Of a stretch of 64,000 nucleotides of DNA, positions 6,889-55,264 are shown in pieces. Source of the stretch: an uncultured Pseudomonadota bacterium (GTDB taxonomy: Bacteria > Pseudomonadota > Gammaproteobacteria > Methylococcales > Methylomonadaceae); contig CAIXED010000008.1 of NCBI GenBank assembly GCA_903918375.1, positions 124,001-188,000 of the forward strand, in the 5' to 3' direction. Within the stretch, counting starts at the first letter, position 1; the number at the start of each line of letters is the position of its first letter. The position numbers were made by a program, and so were the translations under genes. The notes under the pieces were generated by a model. It searched no databases. It was not told the DNA's origin and saw only the letters and a program-made list of their open reading frames with translations.

Positions 6889-6911
6889 GTTAGGAATATC
6901 AAGGAGAATAA

Positions 6912-38235: not shown

Positions 38236-39534
38236 ATGGCTGACAGCAAGTCAATTAATCTGACGCTTAACGATCAAGACAAGCAGTTTGAGCTGCCTAT
38301 TTTATCCGGTTCAATGGGGCCGGATGTGATCGATATTCGTCGCCTGTATGGTCAAAGTGGTTTATTTACTTATGATCCTGGCTTTACCTCAACTGCTAGT
38401 TGTACCTCAAAAATCACCTTTATCGATGGTGATGAAGGGGTTTTGTTATACCGCGGTTATCCAATCGAGCAATTAGCGGAAAGATGTGACTTTTTAGAAG
38501 TCTGCTATCTGCTGTTAAACGGTGATTTACCGAATGGCTCAGAAATGAAAGGTTTTGTTACCACCGTTAGTCAGCATGTGATGGTGCATGAACAGCTTAG
38601 CAAATTCTACAGTGGCTTCCGTCGTGACGCGCATCCAATGGCGGTATTAGTCGGTGTTGTTGGTGCTTTATCAGCGTTCTATCACGATGTTATGGACATC
38701 AACAGCAAAGAAGATCGCTATATGTCAGCGATTCGCTTGATTGCCAAAATGCCGACTATGGTGGCGATGAGCTACAAATACAGCATTGGGATGCCGTTTA
38801 TCTATCCAAAACGCAAACTCGGTTATGCCGAAAACTTTATGCGGATGATGATGGGTGATCCTTGTGATGAGTACTTACCTAATCCAGTTTTAGTGCGTGC
38901 TTTAGATAGAATTTTGATTCTCCACGCTGATCACGAACAAAACGCTTCAACTTCAACTGTTCGCCTAGCCGGTTCAAGCGGTGCGAATCCTTACGCTTGT
39001 GTTGCTGCAGGGATCGCCTGTTTGTGGGGCGCGGCCCACGGTGGTGCTAATGAAGCCGTGTTAAACATGTTGGAACAAATCGGCGATGTGTCGCGGATTA
39101 ACGAATTTGTTGCCAAAGCTAAAGATAAAAACGATCCATTCCGACTGATGGGATTTGGGCATCGGGTTTACAAAAATTACGATCCACGCGCGAAATTAAT
39201 GCGCGAAACTTGCCACGAAGTATTGGACGAATTGAAGCTCAACGATGACCGATTGTTCAAACTGGCGATGGAGCTTGAGCGAATCGCGCTTGAAGACCCT
39301 TACTTTGTAGAGAAAAAACTATACCCAAATGTCGATTTCTACTCAGGCATCGTTTTAAGAGCATTAGGGATTCCAACCGAAATGTTCACCGCGATTTTTG
39401 CGATGGCGCGTTCAGTAGGTTGGATTGCACAATGGGATGAAATGATTTCCGATCCAGAACTAAAAATTGGTCGTCCAAGGCAGCTTTATCAAGGTGTCAC
39501 CAAACGCGACGTTCAACCGATTTCTAGTCGATAA
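38236..39534 (+). CDS. gltA: Citrate synthase (type II, GltA)
   Basis: Condenses acetyl-CoA and oxaloacetate. The 432-aa type II citrate synthase shows [45 protein letters not shown] and [17 protein letters not shown], covering the catalytic His and Asp positions. The N-terminal domain typical of the hexameric NADH-inhibited form is present. AGGAG lies before the ATG and a strong terminator follows. Confidence 0.97.
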
Positions 39535-39538
39535 GCGT

Positions 39539-39570
39539 AAAAAAGCCCGCGTTAAGCGGGCTTTTTTTTG
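39539..39570. terminator. Terminator between gltA and hpnN
   Basis: Stem AAAAAGCCCGC / GCGGGCTTTTT with loop GTTAA, with T runs on both strands. It serves the convergent gltA and hpnN genes. Confidence 0.93.
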
Positions 39571-39582
39571 ACTGAAGATTTT

Positions 39583-42243
39583 TTAGACTTTGCTTTTTAA
39601 TACCAACTTACTTAAAGCCGGTAACACAACAAAGGTACAAGTCATAATCCAGAAAATGCCGATGGTAATCACCAAGCCCATGCTGGCAATCCCTTGATGC
39701 GGTGAAAACGCTAAGCCGACAAAGCTGGAAATCGTCGTCAACGCACCGTAAAACATCCCTCTTGCGGTGCTGGATTGATAAATGTTTTGTTCTTCAGACA
39801 ACGAATGATGGAGTTTTTCCACCATGTGAATCCCATTATCAACCCCCAAGCCCATCAACAAAGGCAAGGCGATGATATTGGCAAAGTTAATCGGTGTGCC
39901 GGTAAACACGGTGGTGGCCATGGTAAACAAACCGGCCAACACCAGCGGTGTCATTACCAACAAGGTGTCAACGATGCTGCGACGAATCACTAATAACAAC
40001 AGCGCAATCGAAACCAAAGCAATAATTATCGCTTCTTGAAAGGCACCAATCACCGCTTTCATCGATTCCCAATACATCACCGGTAAATCAGTCGCATTCG
40101 GCGCAATCGCCTGAACATCAGTAATAAAAGTCTGCAAATTAGTTAAATCATTCAAATCTTGTTTAGGGAAAATTTGAATTCGATATAAACCTTCTTTACT
40201 TAACCAACGTTCTTTAATTTCCGTCGGAATCGATGCTGGGGTAATTTCTTGGGCATTAAAACCATTCAATAATTCGTTCATCACTGAGGGCAAAGTGCCT
40301 AGCAATGAAGTTTGAATTTTCTCAATAAACAAGCCGCGATCCGGTTGTAAACGCGCATCCAGCTCCACCATCACATCCAGCAATTCTTGTTTAAAGTTTT
40401 GCAGGGATTTGATGTCAGCAGGATTGGTTTTTTTCGGCAAATTAGCATCAATCGCCGCAATCATCCGTTTGATACTTGGCACCGGATCATCACCGGCTTT
40501 TAACTGCGGAAAAGATTGACCTTGTTGTCCCAGCGTCATTGCCATTTCGTCAATAATCGCCAATTTGTCTTCTTGTTGATCAGGGACAAAATCAAACAAG
40601 CTCACGGTTTTATCAACCGTGCTTAAGCTCTGCAATTGCTTTTGCATCGCCCGCGCTTCATCTGCAGACTTAGCCAACACGGTTAAAGTCATCGGTGAAG
40701 TATCTTTAGTTTTCATCAACTCTTTAAAGGCAACCACCGATTCTGTATTGGGATCACGAAGATTGAGCGGATTAAAATCCGTTTGAACTTGCGTGGCAAA
40801 ATAAATCGCGGCAATCGCACCCGCCGCGGTGAGAGCGGTAATCGGCTTGGCGTAATGCAAAGTAAACGATGCTAATAACAAAGAAAATTTTGACGCGCCA
40901 GGTTGTTCGCCTTGGTGTAATTTGTGTCTCGGTGGCGCAGGCAGCACTTTTAGCAATGCAGGCAACACCGTCAAGGTGACGAATAAACAGATAAATAAGC
41001 TAGTACCCGCTAATAAACCTAATTCGGAAATACCTTGGTAATCGGTTGGAATAAAAGCAAACAAACCAATTGACGTCGTGATTGCACAGAGTAGCAATGA
41101 TGGCGCGGTTTCTTGCAATGAGGAACGAATCGCGCGGGTTTTGTCGTTGCCGTGTAAATTCAGATTGTCGCGATAACGCAGGCAAAAGTGGATTGCATAC
41201 TCAACCCCTAAACCAATATTCGAGACCGCAAAAGCCACCGAGATTAGATTTAATTGCTTAACCGCTACCGAAGCAAACAAGCCGCAAAACACCATGCCCA
41301 GCGCCAAGGTCATCAAGGTGGCAATCATCAGCAACCAAGAACGGTAAGCCAATAATAAAATCACCAATACCAAGACAATCGAAAAAATGCTGGCAGTAAA
41401 AGTGCCTTCGCTCATGCCCGCCATTTCATCGTGTTCTAAACCGACTTCGCCCGTTACCCAGACTTTAACCGCTGGTAAATTCGGATCTTGGATTTTATTC
41501 ACCGCATGGCGAATCGAATTAATCGCAGGCTCAACCGGTAAAATCTGGTTGTAATCAAATTTAGGCGTCACAAAAATAAAGGCTTTATCCGATTGCTGCT
41601 CACTGATTTTGTTTTCAGCAATCAGCTTTTGCCAAGACAGCAAATCGGTTTCGCCGTTTAAGGTTTTATGCAGCGAATAAGTCACTTTATCAATCAGCGA
41701 CATAATGTCGATGGGCACTTCCTCGGTTTTAGTTTCTGCATTTAAGGCATCTTCAAAAATCGAGAAAAAACCATTCAAGCTAGGATCGCGGGAAATACGG
41801 CCAATAAATGGTTGCGCTTGTGCCAAGGTAATCGAAAAGTCTTGTAACTTATCGCTATCCAAATACAACAAACCATTGCGATGAAAAAAAGCATTTTCAT
41901 CTGGGCGATAGACTTTGGTGAAATGCTCGCTATCAGCGCTTAATTCACGGCTCATACGTTGCGCCGCAGCTTTAGTTAATTCGGGGCTAGACGATTCCAC
42001 AACTAATAATAGCGTATGTACTTCTTGCCCAAATGCTTGCTCAAAATTGCGGCGGTTTTGTTGAAACGGTGCATCCGGCGCAATCAGTTCAGCGGTATCG
42101 GTATTCACCATCAAATGAGTACCGGTATATTGAATCGCTAAATAAGCCAATAACACTGCCGCCGTTAACAATAAAGACGGCGAATACAGCAGCCAGCCGC
42201 TCCAACGATGTGCAAACTGACGTAAATTATTTTCCATCGACAT
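39583..42243 (-). CDS. hpnN: HpnN-type hopanoid transporter, RND/MMPL superfamily
   Basis: An 886-aa RND-like protein with two repeats, each made of one helix, an extracytoplasmic domain and five to six helices. The N-terminal region NTDTAELIAPDAPFQQNRRN and FFHRNGLLYLDSDKL with PFIGRISRDPSLNGFF matches HpnN, which moves hopanoids to the outer membrane in hopanoid producers. GVEYAIHF and GVDNGIHMVEK are the helix 4 relay motifs. It follows the Ca/Na antiporter gene by 2 bp. No other hopanoid gene is in view. Confidence 0.85.
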   Translation of the reverse strand: MSMENNLRQFAHRWSGWLLYSPSLLLTAAVLLAYLAIQYTGTHLMVNTDTAELIAPDAPFQQNRRNFEQAFGQEVHTLLLVVESSSPELTKAAAQRMSRELSADSEHFTKVYRPDENAFFHRNGLLYLDSDKLQDFSITLAQAQPFIGRISRDPSLNGFFSIFEDALNAETKTEEVPIDIMSLIDKVTYSLHKTLNGETDLLSWQKLIAENKISEQQSDKAFIFVTPKFDYNQILPVEPAINSIRHAVNKIQDPNLPAVKVWVTGEVGLEHDEMAGMSEGTFTASIFSIVLVLVILLLAYRSWLLMIATLMTLALGMVFCGLFASVAVKQLNLISVAFAVSNIGLGVEYAIHFCLRYRDNLNLHGNDKTRAIRSSLQETAPSLLLCAITTSIGLFAFIPTDYQGISELGLLAGTSLFICLFVTLTVLPALLKVLPAPPRHKLHQGEQPGASKFSLLLASFTLHYAKPITALTAAGAIAAIYFATQVQTDFNPLNLRDPNTESVVAFKELMKTKDTSPMTLTVLAKSADEARAMQKQLQSLSTVDKTVSLFDFVPDQQEDKLAIIDEMAMTLGQQGQSFPQLKAGDDPVPSIKRMIAAIDANLPKKTNPADIKSLQNFKQELLDVMVELDARLQPDRGLFIEKIQTSLLGTLPSVMNELLNGFNAQEITPASIPTEIKERWLSKEGLYRIQIFPKQDLNDLTNLQTFITDVQAIAPNATDLPVMYWESMKAVIGAFQEAIIIALVSIALLLLVIRRSIVDTLLVMTPLVLAGLFTMATTVFTGTPINFANIIALPLLMGLGVDNGIHMVEKLHHSLSEEQNIYQSSTARGMFYGALTTISSFVGLAFSPHQGIASMGLVITIGIFWIMTCTFVVLPALSKLVLKSKV

Positions 42244-42245
42244 GA

Positions 42246-43220
42246 TTACGCGCTCACCACAGTATTAATCAAATACAGCGTATAACCGACATAAACAGCG
42301 AGTAATGCACCACCTTCTAGGCGGTTAATACGGCCATCGCCACCGTTGCGGTTATAGCCTAAAGCAAACAATGCCACGGTTAACAAAGCCATTAGCGGCC
42401 AGTCGCGGTGCAGAATTTCGCTAGGAATTGACATCGGCTGAATCGAACCGGCCAAGCCGACAACCCCTAAAGTATTAAACAGGTTAGAGCCAATAATATT
42501 ACCTATCGCCAAATCATCTTCACCTTTACGGGCGGCAACAATTGATGAAGCCAATTCTGGAAGAGAAGTACCGATAGCGACAATGGTTAAACCAATCACC
42601 AAATCACTAACACCTAAATCGTGAGCAATCGACACCGCGCCCCAGACTAACATTCTTGAACTGACTACCAGCAACACCAAACCACCGATTAGCCAGATAA
42701 AGGCTTGACTGGTTGACATCGCGTGTTCGTCCAACTCATCTTCCATTTCATCTTCAAGCACATCATGTGGTTGATTACTGCTCTGACGCATCATCCAACC
42801 CATCACCACCGCCAATAAACCTAATTCCAAAAAGCCATCAAATTGCGATAACTGACCATCATAAATTTGCACCAGCACAAACACAGTCACCAAAAACAAA
42901 ATCGGCAACTCTTTACGAATCACTTGCGAATGCACCACGATTGGGCTAACCAAAGCCATACTGCCTAAAATCAAAGCAATATTGGTAATGTTAGAACCAT
43001 AAGCGTTACCCAAGGCGATGCCAGGATTGCCCTGTAAAGCTGACAACGCCGATACCGATAATTCCGGTGCCGATGTGCCAAAACCAACCACGACCATACC
43101 AATTAACAGTGGCGACATGCCCAGCGAGCGAGCCGCAGCCGCAGCGCCTTCAACAAAAATATCGGCGCTCCAAACCAAAATAATCAAGCCAATTACAATC
43201 ATCAACAGTGGCAAAGCCAT
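42246..43220 (-). CDS. Calcium/sodium antiporter (YrbG-like, CaCA superfamily)
   Basis: A 324-aa inner-membrane cation exchanger with about ten helices and the two inverted alpha-repeats: GFGTSAPELSVSALSALQGN with GNAYGSNITNI, and AIGTSLPELASSIVAARKGE with GNIIGSNLFNTLG. An acidic loop (EDEMEDELDEH) lies between the halves. AGGG precedes the ATG. It is coupled to hpnN (stop and start 2 bp apart). Ion choice is inferred from the family. Confidence 0.92.
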   Translation of the reverse strand: MALPLLMIVIGLIILVWSADIFVEGAAAAARSLGMSPLLIGMVVVGFGTSAPELSVSALSALQGNPGIALGNAYGSNITNIALILGSMALVSPIVVHSQVIRKELPILFLVTVFVLVQIYDGQLSQFDGFLELGLLAVVMGWMMRQSSNQPHDVLEDEMEDELDEHAMSTSQAFIWLIGGLVLLVVSSRMLVWGAVSIAHDLGVSDLVIGLTIVAIGTSLPELASSIVAARKGEDDLAIGNIIGSNLFNTLGVVGLAGSIQPMSIPSEILHRDWPLMALLTVALFALGYNRNGGDGRINRLEGGALLAVYVGYTLYLINTVVSA

Positions 43221-43273
43221 AAATTACCCTTCAACAAAAAACAAAAACCAAGCTAGTGCAAGCGCCCTAGAAA

Positions 43274-44101
43274 TTAATTAACAGTCCATTGCACAACGCC
43301 ACTATAAGCACTGGCAATCACCACCAAACCAAACACAATTCGATACCAAGCAAACACAATAAAATTATGATGACTGATATAACGCAACAAACCTTTAACC
43401 GCTAATAAAGCACTGATAAACGCCGCGATTAAACCGGTCGCAAACAGCAAGCTATCATCAGCCAGATTCAACAAATCCCGATGTTTATACAAGTCATAAG
43501 CACTCGCCACCACTAAAGTCGGAATCGCCAGAAAAAATGAAAATTCAGTGGCTGCTTTACGCGATAAACCAAATAACAAACCGCCGATAATCGTCGCACC
43601 AGAACGCGAGGTGCCAGGAATCAGGGCAAATGCCTGAGCAAACCCCAGTTTTAAAGCATCTAACACGGTTAAATCATCGACATGACTAACGCGAATCTTA
43701 TGCTCACGTTTCTCCGCCCAGATAATCACAAACGCCCCGACAATAAACGCCAAAGCCACCGGTAACGGTTTAAACAAAACCGCTTTAATCTGTTTGCCAA
43801 ACAAAAAACCCAAACTCGCCAATGGCAAAAATGCCACCGCCAAATTTAAAACAAACTTCTGCGCTTGCCGCTCGCGAGGAAGGCCAGTGATAACACTAAA
43901 AATTTTCTGACGGTATTCCCAGCAAATCGCCAAAATCGCCCCAACCTGAATCACCACGCTAAACAACTTGGCTTTATCATCATTAAAATCCAGCAAATCC
44001 CCTGCTAAAATCAAATGACCGGTACTAGAAATTGGCAAAAACTCGGTCAAGCCTTCTACCACGCCCAAAATCAAGGCCTTAATCAACAATTCAATATCCA
44101 A
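43274..44101 (-). CDS. uppP: Undecaprenyl-diphosphatase (BacA/UppP)
   Basis: A 275-aa membrane phosphatase that recycles undecaprenyl pyrophosphate for cell-wall synthesis and gives bacitracin tolerance. The E-rich motif [20 protein letters not shown] and the [20 protein letters not shown] motif hold the catalytic Glu, His and Arg. Seven to eight helices; normal length. It lies 53 bp before the antiporter gene on the same strand. Confidence 0.97.
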
Positions 44102-44361
44102 TTTTCAAGCTCCAAAAATGCCAGCGGCTCAAGCTAAGTCCGCGATTTATCAGCTGGTATTTAAACAGAAAGGGTTTACAAACAGACATAGCCAAAAAGC
44201 CATGCAAACGGGGCGGGATTATAGTCGAAATAGTGAGGGTGGCGTAAGCCTAGGGACGGCTACTGATGGGGGCCAAGTATTTGATATTAGAACTGTGTTT
44301 TGAATTTGTTATTCTTGGCTATCGATGACACGCCTTAAAATCACATTTAATAGAGAACGCC

Positions 44362-44994
44362 ATGACCGATTACTTCAACGCAGGACAACGCCAATTGCAA
44401 GATCAGTTTGATAGCCGTCGCTTAGCCGACCGCTTGCAGCAAGGCATTATTCAAGCGGTTATTAACCCCGCCGATGCTGAATTTATCGAAGCGCAAAATA
44501 TGTTTTTTCTTGCTACCGTCGATGAAAAAGGCCAAGCCAATTGTTCTTATAAAGGTGGGCCAAAAGGTTTGGTTAAGGTCGTTGATGAAACCACGCTGGC
44601 TTTCCCGATTTATGACGGCAATGGCCTGTTTATGTCTGCCGGTAATGTGTTGGTGAATGGTCAAGTGGGTTTGTTGTTTATCGACTTTGAGCGACAAGCG
44701 AGGGTTCGGGTCAATGGGCTTGCCAGTATTACCGCTGATGATCAGTTATTGGCGGCTTGGCCGGAAGCTTTGTTTGTCGTGCGGGTGGCGGTGAGAGAAA
44801 CCTTCCCAAATTGTCCACGTTATATCCACAAAATGGCTTTAGTCGAACAATCAAACTTTGTACCGAAAGTCGATTGTGAAACGCCTGCGGCTGATTGGAA
44901 AAAACTGGAAATTGTCGCTGATGTGTTACCCGCTAAAGACGCCCACCTTGCAGGTAATGAACAAGATGTTTTAGCGGCGATTAATCGGAATTAG
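44362..44994 (+). CDS. Pyridoxamine 5'-phosphate oxidase family flavin-binding protein
   Basis: A 210-aa protein with a split-barrel FMN-binding domain: AQNMFFLATVDEKGQANCSY, LAFPIYDGNGLFMSAGN, VGLLFIDFERQARVRVNG and VRVAVRETFPNCPRYIHKM, as in PNPOx-like and general-stress FMN proteins. No true PdxH motifs, so vitamin B6 oxidase activity is not implied. Likely an FMN- or F420-type reductase. It stands alone. Confidence 0.85.
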   Translation: MTDYFNAGQRQLQDQFDSRRLADRLQQGIIQAVINPADAEFIEAQNMFFLATVDEKGQANCSYKGGPKGLVKVVDETTLAFPIYDGNGLFMSAGNVLVNGQVGLLFIDFERQARVRVNGLASITADDQLLAAWPEALFVVRVAVRETFPNCPRYIHKMALVEQSNFVPKVDCETPAADWKKLEIVADVLPAKDAHLAGNEQDVLAAINRN

Positions 44995-45061
44995 CTTACT
45001 GAAAAACTGGGGCAGATGGGTCGCTTAATCCTGTTTTGCCTGTCATTTTGGAGAACGACGG

Positions 45062-45364
45062 ATGACTGCTATTACTTTTGATAAGCTGAAATTTGCTAAT
45101 CGGTTAAAACAAGCCGGTGTGCCATCGGCTCATGCAGAGGCAGAAGCGGAGGCTTTAGCAGATATACTAGAAGCTAATTTAGGTGAACTAGCTACCAAAG
45201 CCGATATTTTGGATACAAAAAAAGAATTGTCTTCAAATATACAACATTTGGAGCAAAGAATGAGTGCTCAATTTATTCAACTCGAACAGCGTATGACGAT
45301 TAAGTTGAGGGCTTTAATGGTGGTGGCTGTCGGCATTGTGGTAACTTTGGTAAAGCTGCTGTAG
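45062..45364 (+). CDS. Small coiled-coil membrane protein (DUF1640/CCDC90-like)
   Basis: A 100-aa protein. An N-terminal region FDKLKFANRLKQAGVPSAHAEAEAEALADIL, a heptad-rich coiled coil (about 50-80) and a C-terminal membrane helix (about 83-100) are the pattern of the DUF1640 family, related to mitochondrial MCUR1/CCDC90. GGAG precedes the ATG. Such genes are often repeated and mobile-associated in bacteria. Function unknown. Confidence 0.8.
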   Translation: MTAITFDKLKFANRLKQAGVPSAHAEAEAEALADILEANLGELATKADILDTKKELSSNIQHLEQRMSAQFIQLEQRMTIKLRALMVVAVGIVVTLVKLL

Positions 45365-45797
45365 TTCGGTTAGCTGAACGGTCTTAAAGCTGCTCATGTT
45401 GTTGATGTCATGGACATGGCTTTTTAGCCACTGTGACGTTGCATTCTAGGGGTGGAAATCAGAACTGTGGATGATTTCTAATCGCGCTGCTTTATGCAAA
45501 ACCTAGTTGAATTGCTGATGAGCCTCAATAGCGTGGTTTGTGTGTAGAAGTTGGTTGGACGAATGCTCGTTATCGGCCAAAAGCGAGCCGCAGCACTTCG
45601 GATTTTGTGTCCGGAGTGGATTCGATAGACGTCTGACCGCTTGTGTGATTGCGCTACTGGGGCTGGTCTTGCGTAGCCTCTACACAGCGGTAGCTGAATC
45701 AAGGGTGTCAGACATCAATCAGCAGACTAACATCAAAAATTTGTAAGCGTGTTGCCCTTCGAATACTCGATTCTATCAAGGTTGCTTGCTAATAAAG
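45365..45797. other. Gene-poor stretch beside the nuclease-helicase module
   Basis: No convincing gene in 433 bp. Short open frames on both strands (for example 45540-45746 plus and 45478-45702 minus) lack RBS and known motifs. The plus-strand frame at about 45549-45630 reads VGWTNARYRPKASRSTSDF and ends in a stop, and could be a remnant of a degraded gene. The stretch marks the 3' edge of an accessory insertion. Confidence 0.4.
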
Positions 45798-48700
45798 CTA
45801 ACTTTCGAGTTGCTTCCATATTGCATAATAAATACGGCCTGATTCATTACCCAAAGCATTAATCCACGCTTTAGCCTCCATGCGACTCAGTTCGTCTCTA
45901 ACTTCAGATAACGATTGTTTGCCAATTGCCCCCATTGAGTTGGCTAAGGGGATTGCCGCCATGCGAGGAACGCCCAGTAAACGCAAAGTAATGGCGTTGT
46001 CATCATTTACACCGTAGTAAGCGCGGGACGGTAAATTGCGCAAGGGACTGTCTTCTTCAATCTCTCCAGCGGTCATGGACAACAAAGCCCCCAATCCCCA
46101 AGAAGCGGTTTGGGTTAATTTACCAAACAGATTCTGGCCGCATTTGGTCATATCATCGGCAAAATGGGTTTTGGCTATTACTTGTACTGGAACACCGTTT
46201 ACCCAGTCTTTTAAAATCAAGGCTAGTTTTTGACCATCAGGATTTTGTCCGCCGGTAACCACATTAAGGTTATCGCGTAACTCGGGCACTTTCAGCAAAA
46301 CTCCCATCATTTTTTGCAAATCGGTGTTGTCTTTGTGGAACAAGGTTTCGCTGTTCCAAACGCTTTCTTTAATGCCTTGCTCGTTTACTGCTTTAAGTGC
46401 TGTTCTAATGCTTTGTAGGGAAAAACCCGTGCTATCCACTAGCTTGAGTGGTTGGCCTGACTGCTGGAAATAGTCAATGTAACTTCTAATGCCACTGAGC
46501 AAAGTATTCGCTTTAGTTAAGTTTTTTTGGCGCAAATGTTCAAATCCAAAAGTGCCACGCAGGATTTCTTCGATTTTGTCGATAAAATCAGGCGGGCAGT
46601 CCATTTGGCGGTAAGTGTGGGTTAGGTATTGCAAAAATGAAGACCATTCTGGGTGTCGATACACAATACCGCCTAAATCAGTCAGCCAGTCTTCGGCTTC
46701 ACTTACCATACCAATCAATGCCGAATTCAAATCTCCGCTTTGCTCGTCGATAAATTTTGCCAGCTTTTGCGCTTTTTCGTCATTTTCGGCAACCAATGCG
46801 ACCACTCCCAAACTACCTTGATCAACCCTTCCGGCACGGCCTGCAATATTCCAAAAATCTTCCGGCGGCATATCAAAATATATTCCTGATTTTTTATCGT
46901 AATATTGATGCGCAGCCATGACGACACCGGCAACCGGAAAATTGACGCCTTGGGCAATCGTGGTGGTGGCGGCTAAAAAATCAATCTCGTTATTTTCAAT
47001 CAACCACTCCATCAAAATTCTGGTTTCATCTGACAAACCGCTGTGATGAACACCGATGCCATAATTCAGTAAATCAATAAGCTGGAACCCCTCACCATAC
47101 TCCAAACGCAAAAAGTCTTGTACTAAGTGGATATTTTCGGATAGCACAGCACGACGGTTGCAATCTAGCTTTAGCTTGTCCGCAAGCATCCAAACCCAAT
47201 CGGGGCGACCGTGCATCAAGATGATAGCACCGCGTTGTTTTAAGCTTTGCGCGGTCAATGCGGCTAAGCTGCCCTGTTTCTTAGCTTGGCTATAGCTATG
47301 TCGGTCATTTACTTCTTTGGGCAAAGCAAGCGTTGCATCAATACTTAAAGTTTTTCGTGTCGTGTGTTTGGGTTTAAATTGCAGCTGGTAGTCATAGCTT
47401 CTACGATTAAGCGGTGCGCCTTGTTCTGCCTGAACAATGCCGATAACCCGATCATTCGGTTGCCAATCAAGGCTTAAACTGATGTCCTGTGAATTAGCCT
47501 CGCCCAGCCACCGCGCTACTTCACGGGCGTTCTTGATAAATGGGGTCAGGAGCAAAAATTGCGCATGTTGGCATTCTTTGTTGATGGTCGCCAGCAACAA
47601 CTCCAAACGTAAGCCTCTGGTTTTATCCTGAAGCGTGTGAGCTTCATCGACCACCACCAAAGTTAAAGGTCGCCCGACTTTAGTCTCCAAATCTTGTCGT
47701 AACATCAAATCAAGTTTTTCAGGCGTGGTTACGAGCACACGGAATGCGCGACGTTCATCGTGTTCATGCAGTAGCTTGGTTTCGATGCCATCAATTTCCA
47801 AAGCCGGGCTAACTTGCTCAACGCTAACACCCAAAGGTTCAAAATCTCTTCGTAAACACCGCGCTACCTGATTGACTAGAGCTTTGGTCGGTGCGATATA
47901 CGCCACCCAGCCGCGCTCAGGTTCAAATTGGTTTAAGGCTTGCAAAATACGGAACTGGGCAATCAGTGTTTTACCGCTGGAAGTGGGCAAGCTGACCACA
48001 ACGGCACGACGGCTTGAACCCAGCAAACCTTCTTCCGCCAAAGCACGGCGTTGCGGCGGTAACACATCAAACAGCACTTTATCGCCCCGCCCCCTATCAA
48101 CCAGACTTCGGACAAACGCGGTGACTCGCGAATTGACAGCACGGGTAACCGTCCAGATTGAATTGTCAGTTAATTGTTTAGCGCAAGCCGCTAATAAACG
48201 GGTCATCGGTGCAAGCGAAGAGCAGCCAGTGGGTTCTAACGCTGCCAGCGCACGATCAAAGTGCATATCCAATAAAGGACGAATATGAAAACTGCCTTCA
48301 ACAACGCCATCGGTTAGAAAATAAGCCATGATTTCAGCCGCTTTTGCCAAATGATAAAAAGCGATCAATTCCATTGCCGCTATCTTGGCATTTGCTCCTG
48401 ATTGGGTTTGCAGGTAATCCGCTTCAAATTGGTTTTGACTTAGACGCAGGTTGGCAATCAGTTCCAGCACAGCATCGCGATCTTTCCAGCCGTGTTTGCG
48501 GATTACACTTAGCCAAAGTTCCAAAACTGTAGCCCAAGTCCGTTCTCTCCAACTAACCGAACCCAAGGGCAATGTAGACCAAGTTTTTTCGCGTAGCATT
48601 CTTGTAGCATCCGCACCTTTATCGCCGATCACAGCTAGAGCGCAGTAGCGCAACACCTGTTCAGCTTGTGTAATCGGTTCAGGTTTGTCAGGCAAGACAC

Positions 48701-48938
48701 GGAATAATCGAAACGCGTTGGCGGCGCAATCACGCAACTGGTCTTGATTGTCTTCGTTGATGCCATCAAGCAATAAGTCAAGCGCTACCAGTTCCAGAGC
48801 CTGAGCATTACGTTCGATTAAGCCAAAATCAATATCGACGGCGGTTTGCAACAAGGCTTGGTATAAAAGCGCTTTATTGGCTTCGTTTTGGGCTAGTTCC
48901 AAGCCATCATGCAGACTATCCAATAACCAGTGGCTCAT
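45798..48938 (-). CDS. Large Ski2-like DEAD/DEAH-box helicase of a two-gene putative defence module
   Basis: A 1046-aa superfamily 2 helicase. I start at the ATG at 48938 (MSHWLLDSLHDGLELAQNEA), whose ATG overlaps the nuclease stop (ATGA). An alpha-helical region of about 310 residues with no motif I recognise comes first. The core holds P-loop SLPTSSGKT (316-324), VAYIAPTKALVNQV (Ia), TTPEKLD, DEAH (431-434), ATTTIAQGVNFP (near 657-668) and NIAGRAGRVDQG (motif VI, 698-708). About 330 residues follow. The organisation fits HamB-type helicases of Hachiman in outline, but the long N-terminal region makes the assignment uncertain. Confidence 0.85.
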   Translation of the reverse strand: MSHWLLDSLHDGLELAQNEANKALLYQALLQTAVDIDFGLIERNAQALELVALDLLLDGINEDNQDQLRDCAANAFRLFRVLPDKPEPITQAEQVLRYCALAVIGDKGADATRMLREKTWSTLPLGSVSWRERTWATVLELWLSVIRKHGWKDRDAVLELIANLRLSQNQFEADYLQTQSGANAKIAAMELIAFYHLAKAAEIMAYFLTDGVVEGSFHIRPLLDMHFDRALAALEPTGCSSLAPMTRLLAACAKQLTDNSIWTVTRAVNSRVTAFVRSLVDRGRGDKVLFDVLPPQRRALAEEGLLGSSRRAVVVSLPTSSGKTLIAQFRILQALNQFEPERGWVAYIAPTKALVNQVARCLRRDFEPLGVSVEQVSPALEIDGIETKLLHEHDERRAFRVLVTTPEKLDLMLRQDLETKVGRPLTLVVVDEAHTLQDKTRGLRLELLLATINKECQHAQFLLLTPFIKNAREVARWLGEANSQDISLSLDWQPNDRVIGIVQAEQGAPLNRRSYDYQLQFKPKHTTRKTLSIDATLALPKEVNDRHSYSQAKKQGSLAALTAQSLKQRGAIILMHGRPDWVWMLADKLKLDCNRRAVLSENIHLVQDFLRLEYGEGFQLIDLLNYGIGVHHSGLSDETRILMEWLIENNEIDFLAATTTIAQGVNFPVAGVVMAAHQYYDKKSGIYFDMPPEDFWNIAGRAGRVDQGSLGVVALVAENDEKAQKLAKFIDEQSGDLNSALIGMVSEAEDWLTDLGGIVYRHPEWSSFLQYLTHTYRQMDCPPDFIDKIEEILRGTFGFEHLRQKNLTKANTLLSGIRSYIDYFQQSGQPLKLVDSTGFSLQSIRTALKAVNEQGIKESVWNSETLFHKDNTDLQKMMGVLLKVPELRDNLNVVTGGQNPDGQKLALILKDWVNGVPVQVIAKTHFADDMTKCGQNLFGKLTQTASWGLGALLSMTAGEIEEDSPLRNLPSRAYYGVNDDNAITLRLLGVPRMAAIPLANSMGAIGKQSLSEVRDELSRMEAKAWINALGNESGRIYYAIWKQLES

Positions 48939-49879
48939 GACGGCGCTCCACTGGATATTAAATGCGGTAAGTCTGCAATCGAGTGGGGAAGATAAAGCGC
49001 TTGCAAATGGCAAGTGCTTGGCGAGCTTATTTGATTTGCTAAATGTTGTGCGCGACTTTTTAAATCATTCTCAGCAGGCTCTGTATCGCGGATTAAAACG
49101 CCAAAAAGGGCTATGGCTTTGTTGCCGGAGGTAAGTAATAAAGCAACTGCCGCATTAAATTGGTCTTCATGTGGCGAGTTTTTACAGCGCGGCTGAAGGT
49201 AGCGTAGTAGTTGAGACAGAATGCTTAAATCTGCCGCCAGCGTCTCCAATTGTTGAGCCATGCCACCGCGACCATTCATCACATTGGGTGGTGTTGAGAC
49301 ATCGCTGGAGGCTTTTACTTCGCCAAGAACTAAGCGGGTTTCGTTTCCCAACTCAATAAAACCAATTAAGTCGGCACCGGGTAAACTGGCTTTAGGTGTG
49401 CGTTTGTCGCGCTCGGTATTCCAAGGCCAAATAACTCCGTGTTTTTGGTTAAGCCACGCTTCGGCTAAGGCTTCAGCAACAGCCCAATCACGTTCCTCGG
49501 GTGTTTCGGCAACCAAAAGTGCATCAAGGCTAGTTTGGGCAAAGCCTGTTGTCGCCAAGCCGCGTAAATGTACTTTGAAATCCTCTTGAGCAGCTTGATC
49601 ATGCAAACGTTCAGCAACATCCCTTTGTAAAAAGGTATGGTAATGGTCACATTGCTCCAAGGATTTGCCTTCCCAATAGACTGCGCCATCAACCCCACTG
49701 TATGCTAAATTCTCCACGACTGCCTTGATTGCTGATGTTAATAAAAAATCGTAATGACAGCTTATTTGCCTTTCCCTGTCACAGCAAATTAGATTATATC
49801 TGTCAGCTAAGAGTCGTAACAAGACAACCAACCAAGATATATCCCGAAAATCAAATCTCAACCACTTGTTCAAGTTCAC
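48935..49879 (-). CDS. PD-(D/E)xK nuclease-like protein (HamA-like candidate) paired with the helicase
   Basis: A 314-aa protein from the GTG at 49879. A nuclease-like site is visible: an acidic helix RDWAVAEALAEAWL (Glu136-Glu140), then Asp170 in LPGADLIGFIEL and Glu187-Val-Lys189 in RLVLGEVKAS, spaced as in PD-(D/E)xK enzymes. The first 50 or so residues look less protein-like. A GTG at 49717, with AAGG five bases upstream, would give a 260-aa product beginning with the conserved-looking ENLAYSGVDGAVYWEGK. Its stop overlaps the helicase start. DUF1837/HamA membership is my inference, not seen directly. Confidence 0.7.
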   Translation of the reverse strand: MNLNKWLRFDFRDISWLVVLLRLLADRYNLICCDRERQISCHYDFLLTSAIKAVVENLAYSGVDGAVYWEGKSLEQCDHYHTFLQRDVAERLHDQAAQEDFKVHLRGLATTGFAQTSLDALLVAETPEERDWAVAEALAEAWLNQKHGVIWPWNTERDKRTPKASLPGADLIGFIELGNETRLVLGEVKASSDVSTPPNVMNGRGGMAQQLETLAADLSILSQLLRYLQPRCKNSPHEDQFNAAVALLLTSGNKAIALFGVLIRDTEPAENDLKSRAQHLANQISSPSTCHLQALYLPHSIADLPHLISSGAPS

Positions 49880-49933
49880 TAATAAAGCGGTTGGCCTTCA
49901 TTCCAATTTCATCTTGCAAATAGCCTTTTAAAT

Positions 49934-50497
49934 TCAATCAGCGATTGTATGTGAATTATCGGCATCAGAAACAACTGCTTGCGCTTCCCTTCGCAACAAC
50001 TCCGCCTTACGCGCCACACCCCAACGATACCCCGATAAATTACCGTCACTGGTAATCACTCGATGACAAGGAATAACCAAGGCTAAAGGATTCGCGGCAC
50101 AGGCTGCCGCGACAGCTCGCACCGCGCTGGGTTGGTCTATGCGTTTGGCGATGGCGGTGTAACTGGCAGTGGTGCCGAGCGGGATGGTTTTTAAGGCTTG
50201 CCAGACTTGTTGTTGGAAAATCGTGCCGCGTATATCGAGCGGCAAATCCAAATCTTGTTGTGGGGATTCGATAAAGGCGATGACTTTGGCGAGATGTTGC
50301 TGTAATAGCGGCTTGTCAGCTTGTAACTGCGCGTCGGGATGTTTGTGTTTAAAGGTGTTGATCAGCGAGTCGGCGTGATCGCCTAAAGCAATCGCGCAGA
50401 CGCCGTGTGGACTCATCGCCAGTAAAACTTCACCGAGTGAGCTGTGTCCTAATGCAAATTCAATCGTGTTATCTGAGCTAGGGTTCAATGTGTTCAA
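49934..50497 (-). CDS. ogt: Methylated-DNA-[protein]-cysteine S-methyltransferase
   Basis: A 187-aa suicide repair protein that takes alkyl groups from O6-alkylguanine. The C-terminal winged-helix domain has FQQQVWQALKTIPLGTTASY, the arginine finger region SAVRAVAAACAANPLAL and the acceptor Cys144 in VIPCHRVI. The N-terminal half is the Ada/Ogt ribonuclease-like domain. It overlaps the AI-2E-type permease gene by 20 bp. Confidence 0.93.
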   Translation of the reverse strand: MNTLNPSSDNTIEFALGHSSLGEVLLAMSPHGVCAIALGDHADSLINTFKHKHPDAQLQADKPLLQQHLAKVIAFIESPQQDLDLPLDIRGTIFQQQVWQALKTIPLGTTASYTAIAKRIDQPSAVRAVAAACAANPLALVIPCHRVITSDGNLSGYRWGVARKAELLRREAQAVVSDADNSHTIAD

Positions 50498-51548
50498 TGG
50501 TTTCTTGCTCCTTGCGGATTAACCAGTCTAAAACTAAGGCATAGCTGGTAGCTAATAAGGTGGGGCCAATAAATACGCCGATAAAACCAAACGCCAAAAG
50601 ACCACCAAAAATACCAAAAACAATTAATACAAACGGTAATTCAACTTCTCTACTGATTAATATCGGTCGTAGCCAGTTGTCAATGGTGCCGACAAATAGC
50701 AAAAACCACGCGGCAATAAAAATTGCCCAGCCGGTTTCACCGTTGGCTAATAACCAAGCCGAAATCGGCAGCCAGACTAATGTGCCGGCTGCTGGAATAA
50801 TCATTAAAAAGAAGGCGATTACCCCCAGTACAAAAGCATAGGGTACCCCGGCAATCACAAACCCCAAAATCGCTGCCAAAGCTTGTACTAAAGCGGTGCC
50901 TAAAATGCCGTAAACCACGGCGCGTAAGCTGGTGCGGACGATGTTCAAAATGCGTTGGGTTTGTTCGCCAGCCAAGCGTTGCACGGCAATCACGACATGC
51001 TGAGCGACACGTTCACCGTCGCGATAAAAGAAAAACAACACCAGCGTACTTAAGCCTAAGTGCATTAATTCTGCCGCCAGATTGATGCTTTGATGGAGCA
51101 ACCAGCTACTGCCGCTGAGTGCATATTGCCGAGCTAAATTAACCAATCGACTAGAGTCATCACCAAATCTCAGCCAGGCTTCTTCAGCGCTATTGCCGAT
51201 CACAGGCAGTTCGTGTAGCCAATGCGGCGGTTGTGGCCAAGTGTGGGCATTGTCACCTAACCATTGTAAAAGCCGATTTATATCGTCTGTAAATGTAAAT
51301 GCCGCGGTTACAAACGGGGTTAAGATTAAAATCGCAATCGGTAACACCATGCACAGCGCGGCTTTGTTGGCGCTGATATTGCGCCATTGCCGCAAACGGC
51401 TGTACAGCGGCCAAGTGACGAAACACAAAATCGCTGCCCACAATAAATCAAACAAAAATGGCCGCAAAACCTGATAGCAAGCAAATAGCAATAAAAACAA
51501 AGCTGCCAAGCTGGCTATTTTTTCGTAGCGGGAATTTGAGTTGAGCAT
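50478..51548 (-). CDS. AI-2E family transporter (YdiK/PerM-like permease)
   Basis: A 356-aa inner-membrane protein with about eight helices and a large loop after helix 2-3 (about 85-150). VLFFFYRDGERV and YAFVLGVIAFFLMIIPAAGT, then DNWLRPILIS and the C-terminal GGLLAFGFIGVFIGPTLLA are hallmarks of the family, once linked to autoinducer-2 export and now also to Na/H antiport. Its 3' end overlaps ogt. Substrate unknown. Confidence 0.92.
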   Translation of the reverse strand: MLNSNSRYEKIASLAALFLLLFACYQVLRPFLFDLLWAAILCFVTWPLYSRLRQWRNISANKAALCMVLPIAILILTPFVTAAFTFTDDINRLLQWLGDNAHTWPQPPHWLHELPVIGNSAEEAWLRFGDDSSRLVNLARQYALSGSSWLLHQSINLAAELMHLGLSTLVLFFFYRDGERVAQHVVIAVQRLAGEQTQRILNIVRTSLRAVVYGILGTALVQALAAILGFVIAGVPYAFVLGVIAFFLMIIPAAGTLVWLPISAWLLANGETGWAIFIAAWFLLFVGTIDNWLRPILISREVELPFVLIVFGIFGGLLAFGFIGVFIGPTLLATSYALVLDWLIRKEQETIEHIEP

Positions 51549-51697
51549 AATGGCGTCTAAAAATAAGGGCAGGGGACAATCTTCATCTTACGCTGATAAG
51601 CGTGTCATGGTTGTGACAATCGTTAATAGTTAAGGTTTAACTTGCTTGCAGCTTGGCGGTTTCCTTAGAATGAGGGCTGTTTCTTAGGAGTGATTGT

Positions 51698-52216
51698 GTG
51701 AATTCACCAGCATTTAAGCCTCTCAATATTGCGGTGTTAACCGTTTCCGATACTCGCAGTTTGGATGATGATTTATCGGGGCAAACTTTAATCAACGGTC
51801 TAACTGCTGCTGGTCATGCGGTTTATGACCGAAAAATCGTCATCGATAACATTTATAAAATCCGTGCCGTTGTCAGTCAATGGATAGCCAATTCTGAAGT
51901 GGATGTGATTCTCACCACCGGCGGCACAGGCGTGACAGGTCGTGATGGCACACCAGAAGCGGTGTCACCGTTATTGGATAAAACTTTGGATGGTTTTGGT
52001 GAAGTATTTAGAGCGATTTCTTATCAAGAAATTAAAACCTCGACTATCCAATCGCGAGCCATTGCTGGGGTTGCCAATGCCACTTATATTTTTTGTTTGC
52101 CCGGTTCTTCTTCAGCTTGTCGCACCGCTTGGGAGAATTTGATTAAAGAGCAATTGGATTACCGAACCAAACCCTGCAATTTAGTGCAGTTAATGCCGCG
52201 TTTATTGGAGAAATAA
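51698..52216 (+). CDS. moaB: Molybdenum cofactor biosynthesis protein B
   Basis: A 172-aa MoaB/Mog-fold protein for molybdopterin metabolism. The start is GTG at 51698 with TAGGAG 7 bp before it. Motifs: IAVLTVSDTRSLDDDLSGQT, then DVILTTGGTGVTGRDGTPEA (MPT-binding loop), and FCLPGSSSACRTAWENLI. Other Moa genes are not adjacent. Its stop overlaps the DUF423 gene start (TAATG). Confidence 0.94.
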   Translation: MNSPAFKPLNIAVLTVSDTRSLDDDLSGQTLINGLTAAGHAVYDRKIVIDNIYKIRAVVSQWIANSEVDVILTTGGTGVTGRDGTPEAVSPLLDKTLDGFGEVFRAISYQEIKTSTIQSRAIAGVANATYIFCLPGSSSACRTAWENLIKEQLDYRTKPCNLVQLMPRLLEK

Positions 52217-52581
52217 TGCAGCGCAATATTTTATTTTCGGCAGCGATTGCCGGATTTTTAGCCGTCGCTTTGGGCGCATTTGGCGCTCATGCTTTGAAAC
52301 ATTCGTTGTCTGACTATGAGTTAGATATTTATAAAACTGCTGTTAACTACCATATCTGGCACGCTTTGTTGCTGGCGCTAATTGCTGCTTTGCCAGCCCA
52401 TAAACTGCTTAATTGGGCGGCAAGACTGCTAATCATCGGCATCGTGCTGTTTTCTGGTAGTCTCTATCTATTAGCGGTAAGCAAGGTAAGCTGGCTGGGG
52501 ATGATTACACCGCTGGGCGGTGTGGCTTTTTTACTGGCTTGGGGACTTTTGGCGCTGGTTGCTTATCAACACAAAGCCTAA
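52216..52581 (+). CDS. DUF423 family small membrane protein (YgdD-like)
   Basis: A 121-aa inner-membrane protein with four helices. GAFGAHALKHSLSDYELDIY, YHIWHALLLALIA, FSGSLYLLAVS and ITPLGGVAFLLAW are the DUF423 signatures. Function unknown. Overlaps moaB by one base. Confidence 0.93.
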   Translation: MQRNILFSAAIAGFLAVALGAFGAHALKHSLSDYELDIYKTAVNYHIWHALLLALIAALPAHKLLNWAARLLIIGIVLFSGSLYLLAVSKVSWLGMITPLGGVAFLLAWGLLALVAYQHKA

Positions 52582-52621
52582 TTTCCAAATCCTATAACTT
52601 TACATCAGATTAAAAAACATC

Positions 52622-55264
52622 ATGCGCGAAGCAAGCCCGCAAACTATTTACCTAAAAGACTACACCTGTCCTGAATATTTAATCGACACGGTCGAATTAG
52701 AATTTGATTTAGACGAACAAGACACATTGGTGCGTTCTAAATTAAGCCTGCGTCGTAATCCACAAAGTGAAGTGAGCAATGCGCCTTTGGTGTTAATGGG
52801 TGAAGAGCTGCAATTAGTCAGCATCGCTTTAGATAGCCATTTATTAGCCGACACAGATTTTGCCTTATCGGCAGAAAGCTTAACTATCCATCAAGTGCCA
52901 CAAGATCAAGCCTTTGTGGTCAGTATCAAAAATCGCATCAATCCCAAGGCCAATACCGCACTAGAAGGTTTGTACCTGTCGAGCAGTATGTTGTGTACCC
53001 AATGCGAAGCACAAGGTTTCCGCAAAATCACTTGGTTTTTAGATCGTCCTGATGTGATGACACGCTTTAAAACCACGTTAATGGCCGATAAAAGCAAGTA
53101 TCCGGTGTTGTTGTCGAATGGCAATAAAATTGCTCAAGGTGATTTGGATAACAATCGCCATTGGGTGAGCTGGGAAGACCCGTTCGCTAAGCCCTGCTAT
53201 CTGTTCGCTTTAGTGGCGGGGCAGTTGGAATCTGTGGCTGATCAATTTACTACCATGAGCGGCCGACAAATTGCCTTGGAGATTTTTGTCGAGCAACACA
53301 ACGTTGATAAATGCGACCACGCCATGCAATCGCTGAAAAACGCCATGTTGTGGGATGAGCAAACCTATGGCCTTGAGTACGATTTGGATTTGTACATGAT
53401 TGTTGCCGTTGACCATTTCAATATGGGCGCGATGGAAAACAAGGGTTTGAACGTGTTTAACACCAAGTTTGTGCTGGCGCGACCTGATACCGCTACCGAT
53501 AGCGATTATGAACACATTGAAGGCGTCATCGGTCATGAATATTTTCATAACTGGACTGGCAACCGCGTCACTTGCCGCGATTGGTTTCAGTTAAGTTTAA
53601 AAGAAGGTTTTACCGTGTTTCGTGACCAAGAGTTTAGCGGTGACAGAACCTCGCAGGCGGTGAAACGGATTGAAGATGTCAATGCTTTACGCACTCGCCA
53701 ATTTGCCGAAGATGCCGGCCCTTTAGCGCATCCGATTCGCCCCGAAGCCTATATCGAAATCAACAACTTTTACACGCTGACCGTCTATGAAAAAGGCGCG
53801 GAAGTGGTGCGGATGTTGCACACTTTGTTGGGCGCAGACGGTTTTCGTAAAGGCTGTGATTTGTATTTTGCCCGCCACGATGGTCAAGCCGTGACTTGTG
53901 AAGATTTTGTTACGGCGATGGAAGCAGCCAATGGCGTTGAATTAAAACAGTTTAGATTGTGGTACTCGCAAGCCGGTACGCCGGTGTTAAACGTCAGTCA
54001 AAAATACGATGCCGACAGCCAAACTTTGCAATTAAGCATTCAACAAAGCTGTCCAGCCACGCCGAATCAAGCGCAAAAATTGCCTATGCATATTCCGGTG
54101 AAACTGGGCTTGTTGGCAGCCGATGGTTCGGCGGCTGAGATTGTGTTTAATGGTCAACGTAGCCAAGAAGTGACCTTGGATGTCACCGAAGCTGAGCAAA
54201 GTTTTAGTTTTGAAAACTTGCCGCAACAGCCGGTGGTGTCGTTGTTGCGCGGTTTTTCTGCACCGGTGAGTTTGAAAATTCAACGTAGTTTGGAAGAGCT
54301 GGCCTTTTTGCTACGCCACGACAGCGACACTTTTAGTCGTTGGGAAGCAGGGCAGCAATTAGCCAGCCAAGTGATTTTCAAGTTGATTGATGATTTACAA
54401 AATCAACGGCCTTTGGCTTTGGATGCCGTGGTGGTTGAGGCTTATCGCAGCATCGTTAACAGCGAAAGCAGCGATTTGTCGTATCAAGCTTTGTTGCTGA
54501 CCTTGCCGGAAGAAAGTTATTTATCAGGGCAAATGGCGGTGATTGATGTCGATGCGATTTATCAAGCGCGGCAATTTGTTAGAAAAACGTTGGCGGTACA
54601 ACTGCAAGCTGAATTTAAGCAGTTATACCTCCAGCATCATCGTGATGAGTCAGGCTGTTTTACGGCAGATGCGGTGGGCAGACGGCGTTTGAAAAACACC
54701 TGTTTAAGTTATTTATTAAGCTTGGAAACCGCCGAAAACTATCAATTAGCCAGCCAACAGTTTGCCAGCGCTGGCAATATGACCGACCAAATGGCGGCTT
54801 TGTCGGTGATGGTCAATAGTCATCATCCGGCTAAAGCTCAAGCCTTGGATGGTTTCTACCAACAATGGCAACAAGAAGCCTTGGTGATTGATAAATGGTT
54901 CGCACTACAAGCCACCAGCAGCTTGCCGAACACGTTTGCTACCGTCCAAGCGTTGATGCAGCATCCAGCCTTTGATATGAAAACCCCGAATCGGGTGCGG
55001 GCTTTGGTGGGCGCGTTTACTCAAGCCAATCCTTTGCATTTTCATGCCAAATCCGGTGATGGTTATCGCTTCTTAGCTGACCAAGTTTTAGTGCTGAATA
55101 GCCTGAATCCACAAATTGCATCGCGGATGGTGACAGGGCTGGCGCAATGGCGTCGTTACGATGTCGCGCGGCAACTGTTAATGAAACAGCAATTGCAACG
55201 CATCGTCGATACCGAGGATTTGTCCAAGGATGTCTACGAAATTGCCAGCAAGAGTTTGGCGTAA
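52622..55264 (+). CDS. pepN: Aminopeptidase N (M1 family)
   Basis: An 880-aa cytoplasmic zinc aminopeptidase that finishes peptide breakdown. GAMEN is at 269-273 and the zinc motif HEYFH at 305-309, followed by NWTGNRVTCRDWFQLSLKEG with the third zinc Glu. The four-domain layout and length match E. coli PepN (870 aa). It is separated from hisB by 49 bp. Confidence 0.97.
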   Translation: MREASPQTIYLKDYTCPEYLIDTVELEFDLDEQDTLVRSKLSLRRNPQSEVSNAPLVLMGEELQLVSIALDSHLLADTDFALSAESLTIHQVPQDQAFVVSIKNRINPKANTALEGLYLSSSMLCTQCEAQGFRKITWFLDRPDVMTRFKTTLMADKSKYPVLLSNGNKIAQGDLDNNRHWVSWEDPFAKPCYLFALVAGQLESVADQFTTMSGRQIALEIFVEQHNVDKCDHAMQSLKNAMLWDEQTYGLEYDLDLYMIVAVDHFNMGAMENKGLNVFNTKFVLARPDTATDSDYEHIEGVIGHEYFHNWTGNRVTCRDWFQLSLKEGFTVFRDQEFSGDRTSQAVKRIEDVNALRTRQFAEDAGPLAHPIRPEAYIEINNFYTLTVYEKGAEVVRMLHTLLGADGFRKGCDLYFARHDGQAVTCEDFVTAMEAANGVELKQFRLWYSQAGTPVLNVSQKYDADSQTLQLSIQQSCPATPNQAQKLPMHIPVKLGLLAADGSAAEIVFNGQRSQEVTLDVTEAEQSFSFENLPQQPVVSLLRGFSAPVSLKIQRSLEELAFLLRHDSDTFSRWEAGQQLASQVIFKLIDDLQNQRPLALDAVVVEAYRSIVNSESSDLSYQALLLTLPEESYLSGQMAVIDVDAIYQARQFVRKTLAVQLQAEFKQLYLQHHRDESGCFTADAVGRRRLKNTCLSYLLSLETAENYQLASQQFASAGNMTDQMAALSVMVNSHHPAKAQALDGFYQQWQQEALVIDKWFALQATSSLPNTFATVQALMQHPAFDMKTPNRVRALVGAFTQANPLHFHAKSGDGYRFLADQVLVLNSLNPQIASRMVTGLAQWRRYDVARQLLMKQQLQRIVDTEDLSKDVYEIASKSLA

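Follow-up and report, generated by a model that had tools for sequence, protein, structure and literature searches.

A PDC-M23 gene pair in a Methylomonadaceae contig as a probable divergent relative of Hachiman

What kind of system is encoded by two overlapping genes, a putative nuclease followed by a large helicase, in a 64,000-nucleotide stretch of a Methylomonadaceae contig (CAIXED010000008.1, positions 124,001 to 188,000; hereafter the window)? The first-pass annotation had described two minus-strand open reading frames (ORFs), 48935-49879 and 45798-48938 (1046 amino acids, aa), sharing four bases, and had likened them to Hachiman (HamA/HamB) and AbpAB. Both frames and their overlap are present as claimed; we call them genes A and B. 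We consider it probable that they belong to the HamAB-type (Hachiman-like) anti-phage systems as a third, divergent lineage, in which B would control a DNA-triggered DNase, a reading that draws on sequence comparison, predicted structures and analogy.

48935-49717, minus strand: gene A (PDC-M23A), predicted 260-aa HamA-like nuclease, from the PADLOC match (PDLC04527), an alignment-based GTG start, motif, profile and fold
45798-48938, minus strand: gene B (PDC-M23B), predicted 1046-aa Ski2-like superfamily 2 (SF2) helicase, from the PADLOC match (PDLC04531), Pfam DEAD and a HamB fold match
48935-48938, minus strand: ATGA overlap of the A stop and the B start, seen in the sequence; likely translational coupling

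The gene pair and its place in PADLOC

In a PADLOC profile search A matched PDC-M23A (E 7.1e-103) and B matched PDC-M23B (E = 0), each over nearly its full length, with the HamB model next for B (2.5e-64). A PDC-M23A gene thus adjoins a PDC-M23B gene at 45798-49717, the arrangement by which PDC-M23 is defined; the window pair is a member of this PADLOC candidate, from which we saw no difference, and is therefore already catalogued. The earlier suggestion of an undescribed group was half right: PADLOC lists the pair as a candidate, and no paper naming PDC-M23 was found in the literature searched. PADLOC PDCs are described as putative candidates, several of them proposed from guilt by embedding, and most of those in the core set await validation (PMC12988326; this and all other papers are cited from the portions available). 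Judged by predicted fold and by profile, the pair is a divergent Hachiman variant and a defence candidate that looks active.

The start of the nuclease gene had been placed at 49879, which we revise. Gene A most likely starts at GTG 49717, preceded by AAGG, because AAGGCANTCGTG at this start is common to the window and its two closest relatives (genomes G031 and G524; G and L numbers are our handles for genomes and loci), because the ATG start of the next, more distant relative (G051) aligns with this GTG, and because position 5 of the PADLOC PDC-M23A profile falls on residue 55 of the longer ORF. Along that ORF, protein identity to the copies in G031 and G524 sets in at residues 37 and 45, and the first 54 codons of the ORF correspond to repeat-derived leader DNA. 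Matches to residues 7-51 in G007, in G034 and at a second place in G031 stem from this repeat and not from relatives of A; they were excluded from all counts.

Fourteen distinct loci with both genes visible were counted. One further locus, L068, was excluded, as 111 bases of A lie at its contig end; L008, a contig of a Methylicorpusculum metagenome-assembled genome, and G524 were treated as one record. A stands directly before B in all 14, and the two share four bases in 13; in the last (L067) the overlap depends on the start codon chosen. Ratios of nonsynonymous to synonymous substitution rates (dN/dS) show purifying selection on A (0.145-0.297) and on B (0.162-0.208) in pairwise comparisons of the three closest copies, those of the window, G524 and G031; for relatives further away dS was not usable, and no values were taken from them. 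The ORFs are not a product of chance, since they are long, coupled, paired in 14 loci and under purifying selection.

The distribution of the pair is sparse. Of 311 genomes of the order, 8 carry PDC-M23A, as do 2 of the 398 genomes of a phylum sample (the window's own included), a sample in which Pfam HamA occurs in 15. A scan of IMG/VR gave four loci with A (one a fragment) and five with B; on the plasmids and phages of annotated collections A had no match at E<=1e-5.

Comparison of A and B with HamA, HamB and other systems

A Pfam scan of A matched no family. When nine A proteins were aligned, D116 and G132-E133-V134-K135, a D-GEXK motif, were invariant in all nine, with E82, E86 and Q156 also among the invariant residues. 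The predicted catalytic residues D170, E187 and K189 of the first-pass annotation, numbered on the longer ORF, do exist and correspond to D116, E133 and K135. D-GEXK is given as the canonical HamA motif (PMC12799240), and in the solved HamA, where ExK is E138/K140, the double mutant is reported to show that these residues are needed for Hachiman defence (PMC12278908).

A profile built from the nine A proteins and run against 177,635 PDB sequences placed two HamA chains first (8vxy_A and 8vx9_A, E 5.6e-4 and 7e-4), in a match covering 106 of its 261 positions; the proteins are also alike in length (260 aa for A, 259 for the HamA chains). Comparison by hhalign with sets of 7 and 19 HamA proteins gave 92% and 94% (E 5e-7 and 1e-7) with ExK on ExK; in controls with the 7-protein set (20 column shuffles and one reversal) the maximum was 1.9%. 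When A was aligned jointly with the 19 HamA proteins, 17 of them showed D, E and K in the columns of D116, E133 and K135, and the other two lack the motif. Consistently, a predicted model of A, made from a 5-sequence alignment (predicted local distance difference test score, pLDDT, 71.4; predicted template modelling score, pTM, 0.74), had HamA 8vxy_A as its sole PDB match at E<=1e-3 (8.3e-6, probability 1.00). By these sequence and model comparisons, A is homologous to HamA.

Pfam found DEAD (1.2e-23) and Helicase_C in B. The helicase residues of B are intact, but the claim of full SF2 motifs goes slightly too far: motif III reads LLTPF, not SAT; across 13 PDC-M23B rows it is LLTPF or LLMP[YFN]. 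The helical N-terminal region that had been proposed is seen in the predicted model of B, where residues 2-280 form a series of helices, about 280-300 residues in all. Searched against 350,542 PDB chains, this model found three HamB chains best by E-value (2.9e-20 to 1.0e-19), in alignments spanning 1171-1205 columns including gaps. By E-value, the structure-prediction comparison proposed by the first-pass annotation favours HamA for A and HamB for B, with modest template modelling scores. Profile comparison of B with long HamB proteins gave 94% for the C-terminal parts.

In a 31-row tree of the helicase core the 13 PDC-M23B proteins formed one clade (support 100/99), long HamB another (98/92), and short HamB grouped with AbpB (100/99). 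When nine rows were added, including outgroup-like helicases, the PDC-M23 clade was kept and a rhizobial plasmid group became its sister (98/98); long HamB was weakly held (81/41), with the HamB of L077 outside it, and the deeper order was without resolution. Of 19 HamB proteins, L080 (332 aa) was excluded by length from both trees and L092 (548 aa) before building; L072 was left out, its B being cut by the contig end.

Set beside Hachiman with long HamB (E. coli, 8vx9/8vxy), the nearest system that has been characterised, the window pair is alike in its two-gene nuclease-helicase plan, in having D-GEXK in register and in the best fold match for both proteins. It is unlike Hachiman in that the Pfam HamA family is blind to A, that the PDC-M23 helicases form a separate clade, that motif II is DEAH in 12 of 13 PDC-M23B rows where long HamB has DEGH, that motif III is LL[TM]P, and that the N-terminal region of long HamB is unmatched, by profile, by that of B. 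The idea of a distinct group on the Hachiman plan is supported by profiles, fold and helicase trees. The likeness to AbpAB of E. coli is confined to a nuclease with a Ski2-like helicase: AbpA is described as a Cap4-like N-terminal nuclease with a HamA domain whose residues are inactive (PMC12278908), unlike the single 260-aa domain of A with its intact motif, and AbpB belongs with short HamB. Membership in AbpAB, whose plan the first-pass annotation had also named, was rejected on these grounds.

Several results weigh against counting the pair as Hachiman. Pfam HamA (PF08878, DUF1837) matched none of the nine A proteins at E<=10, in a search whose HMMER filters drop most matches above E 0.1, and it had no match in genome G000; of the profile checks suggested beforehand, it was PADLOC that answered, with PDC-M23A/B and its HamB model. 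The PADLOC HamA models matched two of the nine A proteins (best E 0.01). In the other direction, the A profile matched 5 of 19 HamA proteins, four standing beside a HamB of >1,100 aa and the fifth, L092, beside a HamB frame of 548 aa, and it missed two plasmid HamA proteins that Pfam recognises. The HMMER alignment of the A profile with PDB HamA has D116 in register and ExK two residues off. The scores of the A model against HamA are modest (template modelling (TM) scores 0.49/0.51, root-mean-square deviation (rmsd) 7.2, for a model from five sequences at pLDDT 71). The B model is weak (pLDDT 63.6, pTM 0.48), with much of the first RecA domain below a pLDDT of 50; it fits HamB at TM 0.41-0.47 with an rmsd of about 17, and the Hel308 chains that follow HamB by E-value have higher TM scores by target (0.53-0.56). 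By profile, the N-terminal part of B agrees with long HamB at 5.6%, and in plain sequence comparison B scores ASCC3, Slh1, Brr2 and Hel308 above HamB. Finally, a PDC-M23B clade apart from the HamB clades may speak against strict Hachiman membership. By the strict Pfam test applied to the sequence, A-B is not a member of Hachiman.

The sister group of the PDC-M23B helicases comes from pairs on rhizobial plasmids (L104:3806-7811, L105:3743-7715, L106:3758-7811), in which a gene for a protein of about 285 aa lies just upstream of the helicase gene; in L105, genes of a cyclic-oligonucleotide-based antiphage signalling system (CBASS) stand upstream. The partners in L104 and L105 have D..QxK, read by eye, where A has D..ExK, and are matched neither by the A profile nor by Pfam. 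The A profile found nothing at E<=1 among rhizobial, Streptomyces and Methylobacter plasmid partner proteins, two of which Pfam assigns to HamA.

Gene setting and possible mode of action

In 5 of the 14 loci (L012, L013, L022, L066 and L067) the pair lies inside a type I restriction-modification (RM) operon. The assignment of L067 is by similarity to other Hsd proteins, the hsdR of L022 is cut by the contig end, and hsdS was not found in the operon of L066. A overlaps hsdS by four bases in L012, L013 and L022, and possibly in L067 if the first start codon is used. In L023 (G459) the pair stands between cysS and folD, preceded by an hsdS remnant (23 residues, E 7e-5) and followed by an hsdR remnant (E 8e-23); judged from these sequences, the RM genes decayed there and A-B stayed open. 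The remaining 14 flank stretches in this search for RM relics gave nothing below E 0.08. Elsewhere the pair is found in a defence island (L024), downstream of WYL, DUF2779 and BrxL genes (L065) and among phage tail, capsid and portal genes (L073). No RM, defence or phage setting was seen for the window, L008, L011, L025 or L072; in the window, the ten neighbours include no hsd gene and the edges gave a chance-level match (E 0.19). The operon of L012 also encodes, between B and hsdM, an AAA_13 (PF13166) protein at 6085-7572 on the minus strand, which we take to carry a PrrC/RloC-type domain.

Complex formation, sensing of DNA ends, nuclease release and cell-wide loss of DNA have been described for HamAB (PMC12278908), and by analogy we would expect the following of A-B. 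B most likely binds A, possibly by way of the helices of its N-terminal region, and would survey DNA. Once B meets a DNA end that is free or single-stranded, or a phage replication intermediate, ATP-driven movement of B would free or switch on A, a predicted PD-(D/E)xK DNase, which would then degrade phage DNA and probably host DNA too, as in abortive infection. Given the RM setting, HsdR breaks or a failure of HsdR could also act as the trigger; stand-alone cassettes exist, so an HsdR-linked trigger cannot be the sole mode.

One rival reading makes the pair a back-up module of type I restriction, triggered in the manner of PrrC by HsdR breaks or by phage anti-restriction proteins. We find this doubtful. 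In its favour are the five hsd operons, the hsdS overlaps, the AAA_13 gene of L012, the hsdS and hsdR relics beside open A and B in L023, and the precedent of PrrC, which is described as silenced by its linked type I enzyme and triggered by a phage anti-restriction factor (PMC2610378). Eight of the 14 loci, however, have no type I Hsd match (7 of 13 at E<=1e-6, plus the window), and L023 kept A-B after losing its RM system, so RM is not required. TgvAB, another RM-embedded pair, is likewise reported to protect without RM, with protection 10- to 100-fold lower against several phages (PMC11411939). Nor is closeness to a methylase special in itself to PDC-M23, since 3 of 25 loci that hold HamAB-like or sister pairs have an HsdM-like match nearby, most of these stretches reaching a few kb beyond the pair.

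We think it similarly unlikely that PDC-M23 is a third major Hachiman lineage that arose inside type I RM operons as a sensor of restriction failure or success, in which HsdR ends or stalled restriction would set off HamA-like genome destruction, and that it was later freed at least once as a cassette (window, G031, G524) and once by RM decay (G459, L023). The available portions of the defence literature searched did not describe a Hachiman system lying within type I RM, which leaves its absence unproven. The RM-embedded relatives permit a direct test of whether breaks from restriction supply the ends to which a DNA-end-sensing suicide nuclease responds; if they do, a very common bacterial defence, restriction, would be linked to abortive infection.

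A type IV-like, modification-dependent restriction pair that cuts modified phage DNA directly and spares the cell is improbable. The next fold match of the A model after HamA is MspJI, a modification-dependent nuclease (E 0.025-0.03). A two-gene type IV system, TgvAB, occupies the same kind of RM-embedded place (PMC11411939). The MspJI match is, however, far weaker than that to HamA, Pfam finds no base-reading domain in A or B, and B is a Ski2-like helicase.

A housekeeping DNA-repair role of the Hel308 kind is very improbable and was rejected on patchy distribution and horizontal transfer: the core of B does resemble Hel308 (PDB 2va8, E 6.3e-28; NCBIfam Hel308 at 115.7 bits, far below its cut-off of 1200), whose chains follow HamB by fold, but PDC-M23A occurs in so few genomes of the order, the cassette is horizontally mobile, and the settings of relatives include RM operons, a defence island and phage genes. 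With the preferred reading, a divergent HamAB-type system, a PADLOC candidate that lacked characterisation gains a link to a mechanism whose structural details are known, and the exact residues to mutate are identified.

The search for a bacterial Hel308 yardstick instead turned up a caspase-helicase fusion of 1006 aa in G475 (L112:3390-6410, minus strand), in which the caspase domain (Peptidase_C14, 1.8e-9) is N-terminal and the helicase is Hel308-like (DEAD, 8.1e-19, and archaeal helicase domain 4). From its domains, this is possibly a defence protein with a helicase sensor and a protease effector.

The cassette, its edges and its leader

Near-identical copies stand at different sites in related bacteria, so the pair seems to be mobile as a small, horizontally transferred cassette.

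45574-49833, minus strand: whole moved unit, about 4.26 kb, from its DNA identity to G524 and G031 compared with that of pepN
45574-45797, strand unassigned: 3' tail of the cassette, shared in full by G524 and only to 45707 by G031; right edge at 45574-45580
44109-49991, no strand: stretch without counterpart in G003, which is colinear with 39415-44108 and 49992-51530
49718-49833, minus strand: leader, common in part to the three closest cassettes, with a promoter-like TTGTTA-18-TATAAT at 49822-49793; belongs to a dispersed repeat

The cassette shares 90% DNA identity with its copy in G524, which belongs to another genus of the family, and 86% with the copy in G031, of the same genus, the three copies lying at different sites; the corresponding values for pepN are 68-71% (main matching pieces) and 76%. 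GC content was not telling as a mark of transfer (0.468 for the cassette; 0.365-0.478 for 4.26-kb stretches of the window). The gene-poor edge that had been noted at 45365-45797 does hold a real boundary, in its interior: colinearity of G009 with the window stops at 45580, beyond which G009 carries different DNA, and sharing with G524 ends at 45574. At the site that the cassette occupies in the window, this other DNA of the near relative G009, possibly coding, reaches the contig end (L119:1-430), which makes the site a variable accessory spot.

In G003, uppP is followed by ogt without the window stretch 44109-49991. Besides the pair, that stretch holds two genes, one of the PNPOx family (44362-44994) and one small (45062-45364). 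Of the ten window neighbours scanned, nine have housekeeping, membrane-transport or DUF423 Pfam matches, and one small gene has none. The proposed accessory island thus narrows to a moved cassette at a variable site; a wider island is not seen among neighbours that are mostly housekeeping or transport genes.

A search of 42000-53000 found no RNA family at gathering score, and promoter-like sites in the region were not in excess (4, against a mean of 6.5 in shuffles). The element upstream of A is a repeat, about 160 bp long and palindromic in parts, that is dispersed among intergenic regions; it is present at 49753-49833 of the window and at many other loci (L026-L045), and is therefore ruled out as a cassette-specific regulator. 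It was matched in 45 of 101 related genomes, most of them without the pair, and among the matches listed reached up to 11 per genome, with 8 candidates scored in most genomes. In all three of the window, G031 and G524 the repeat borders directly on the cassette, where recombination might make use of it.

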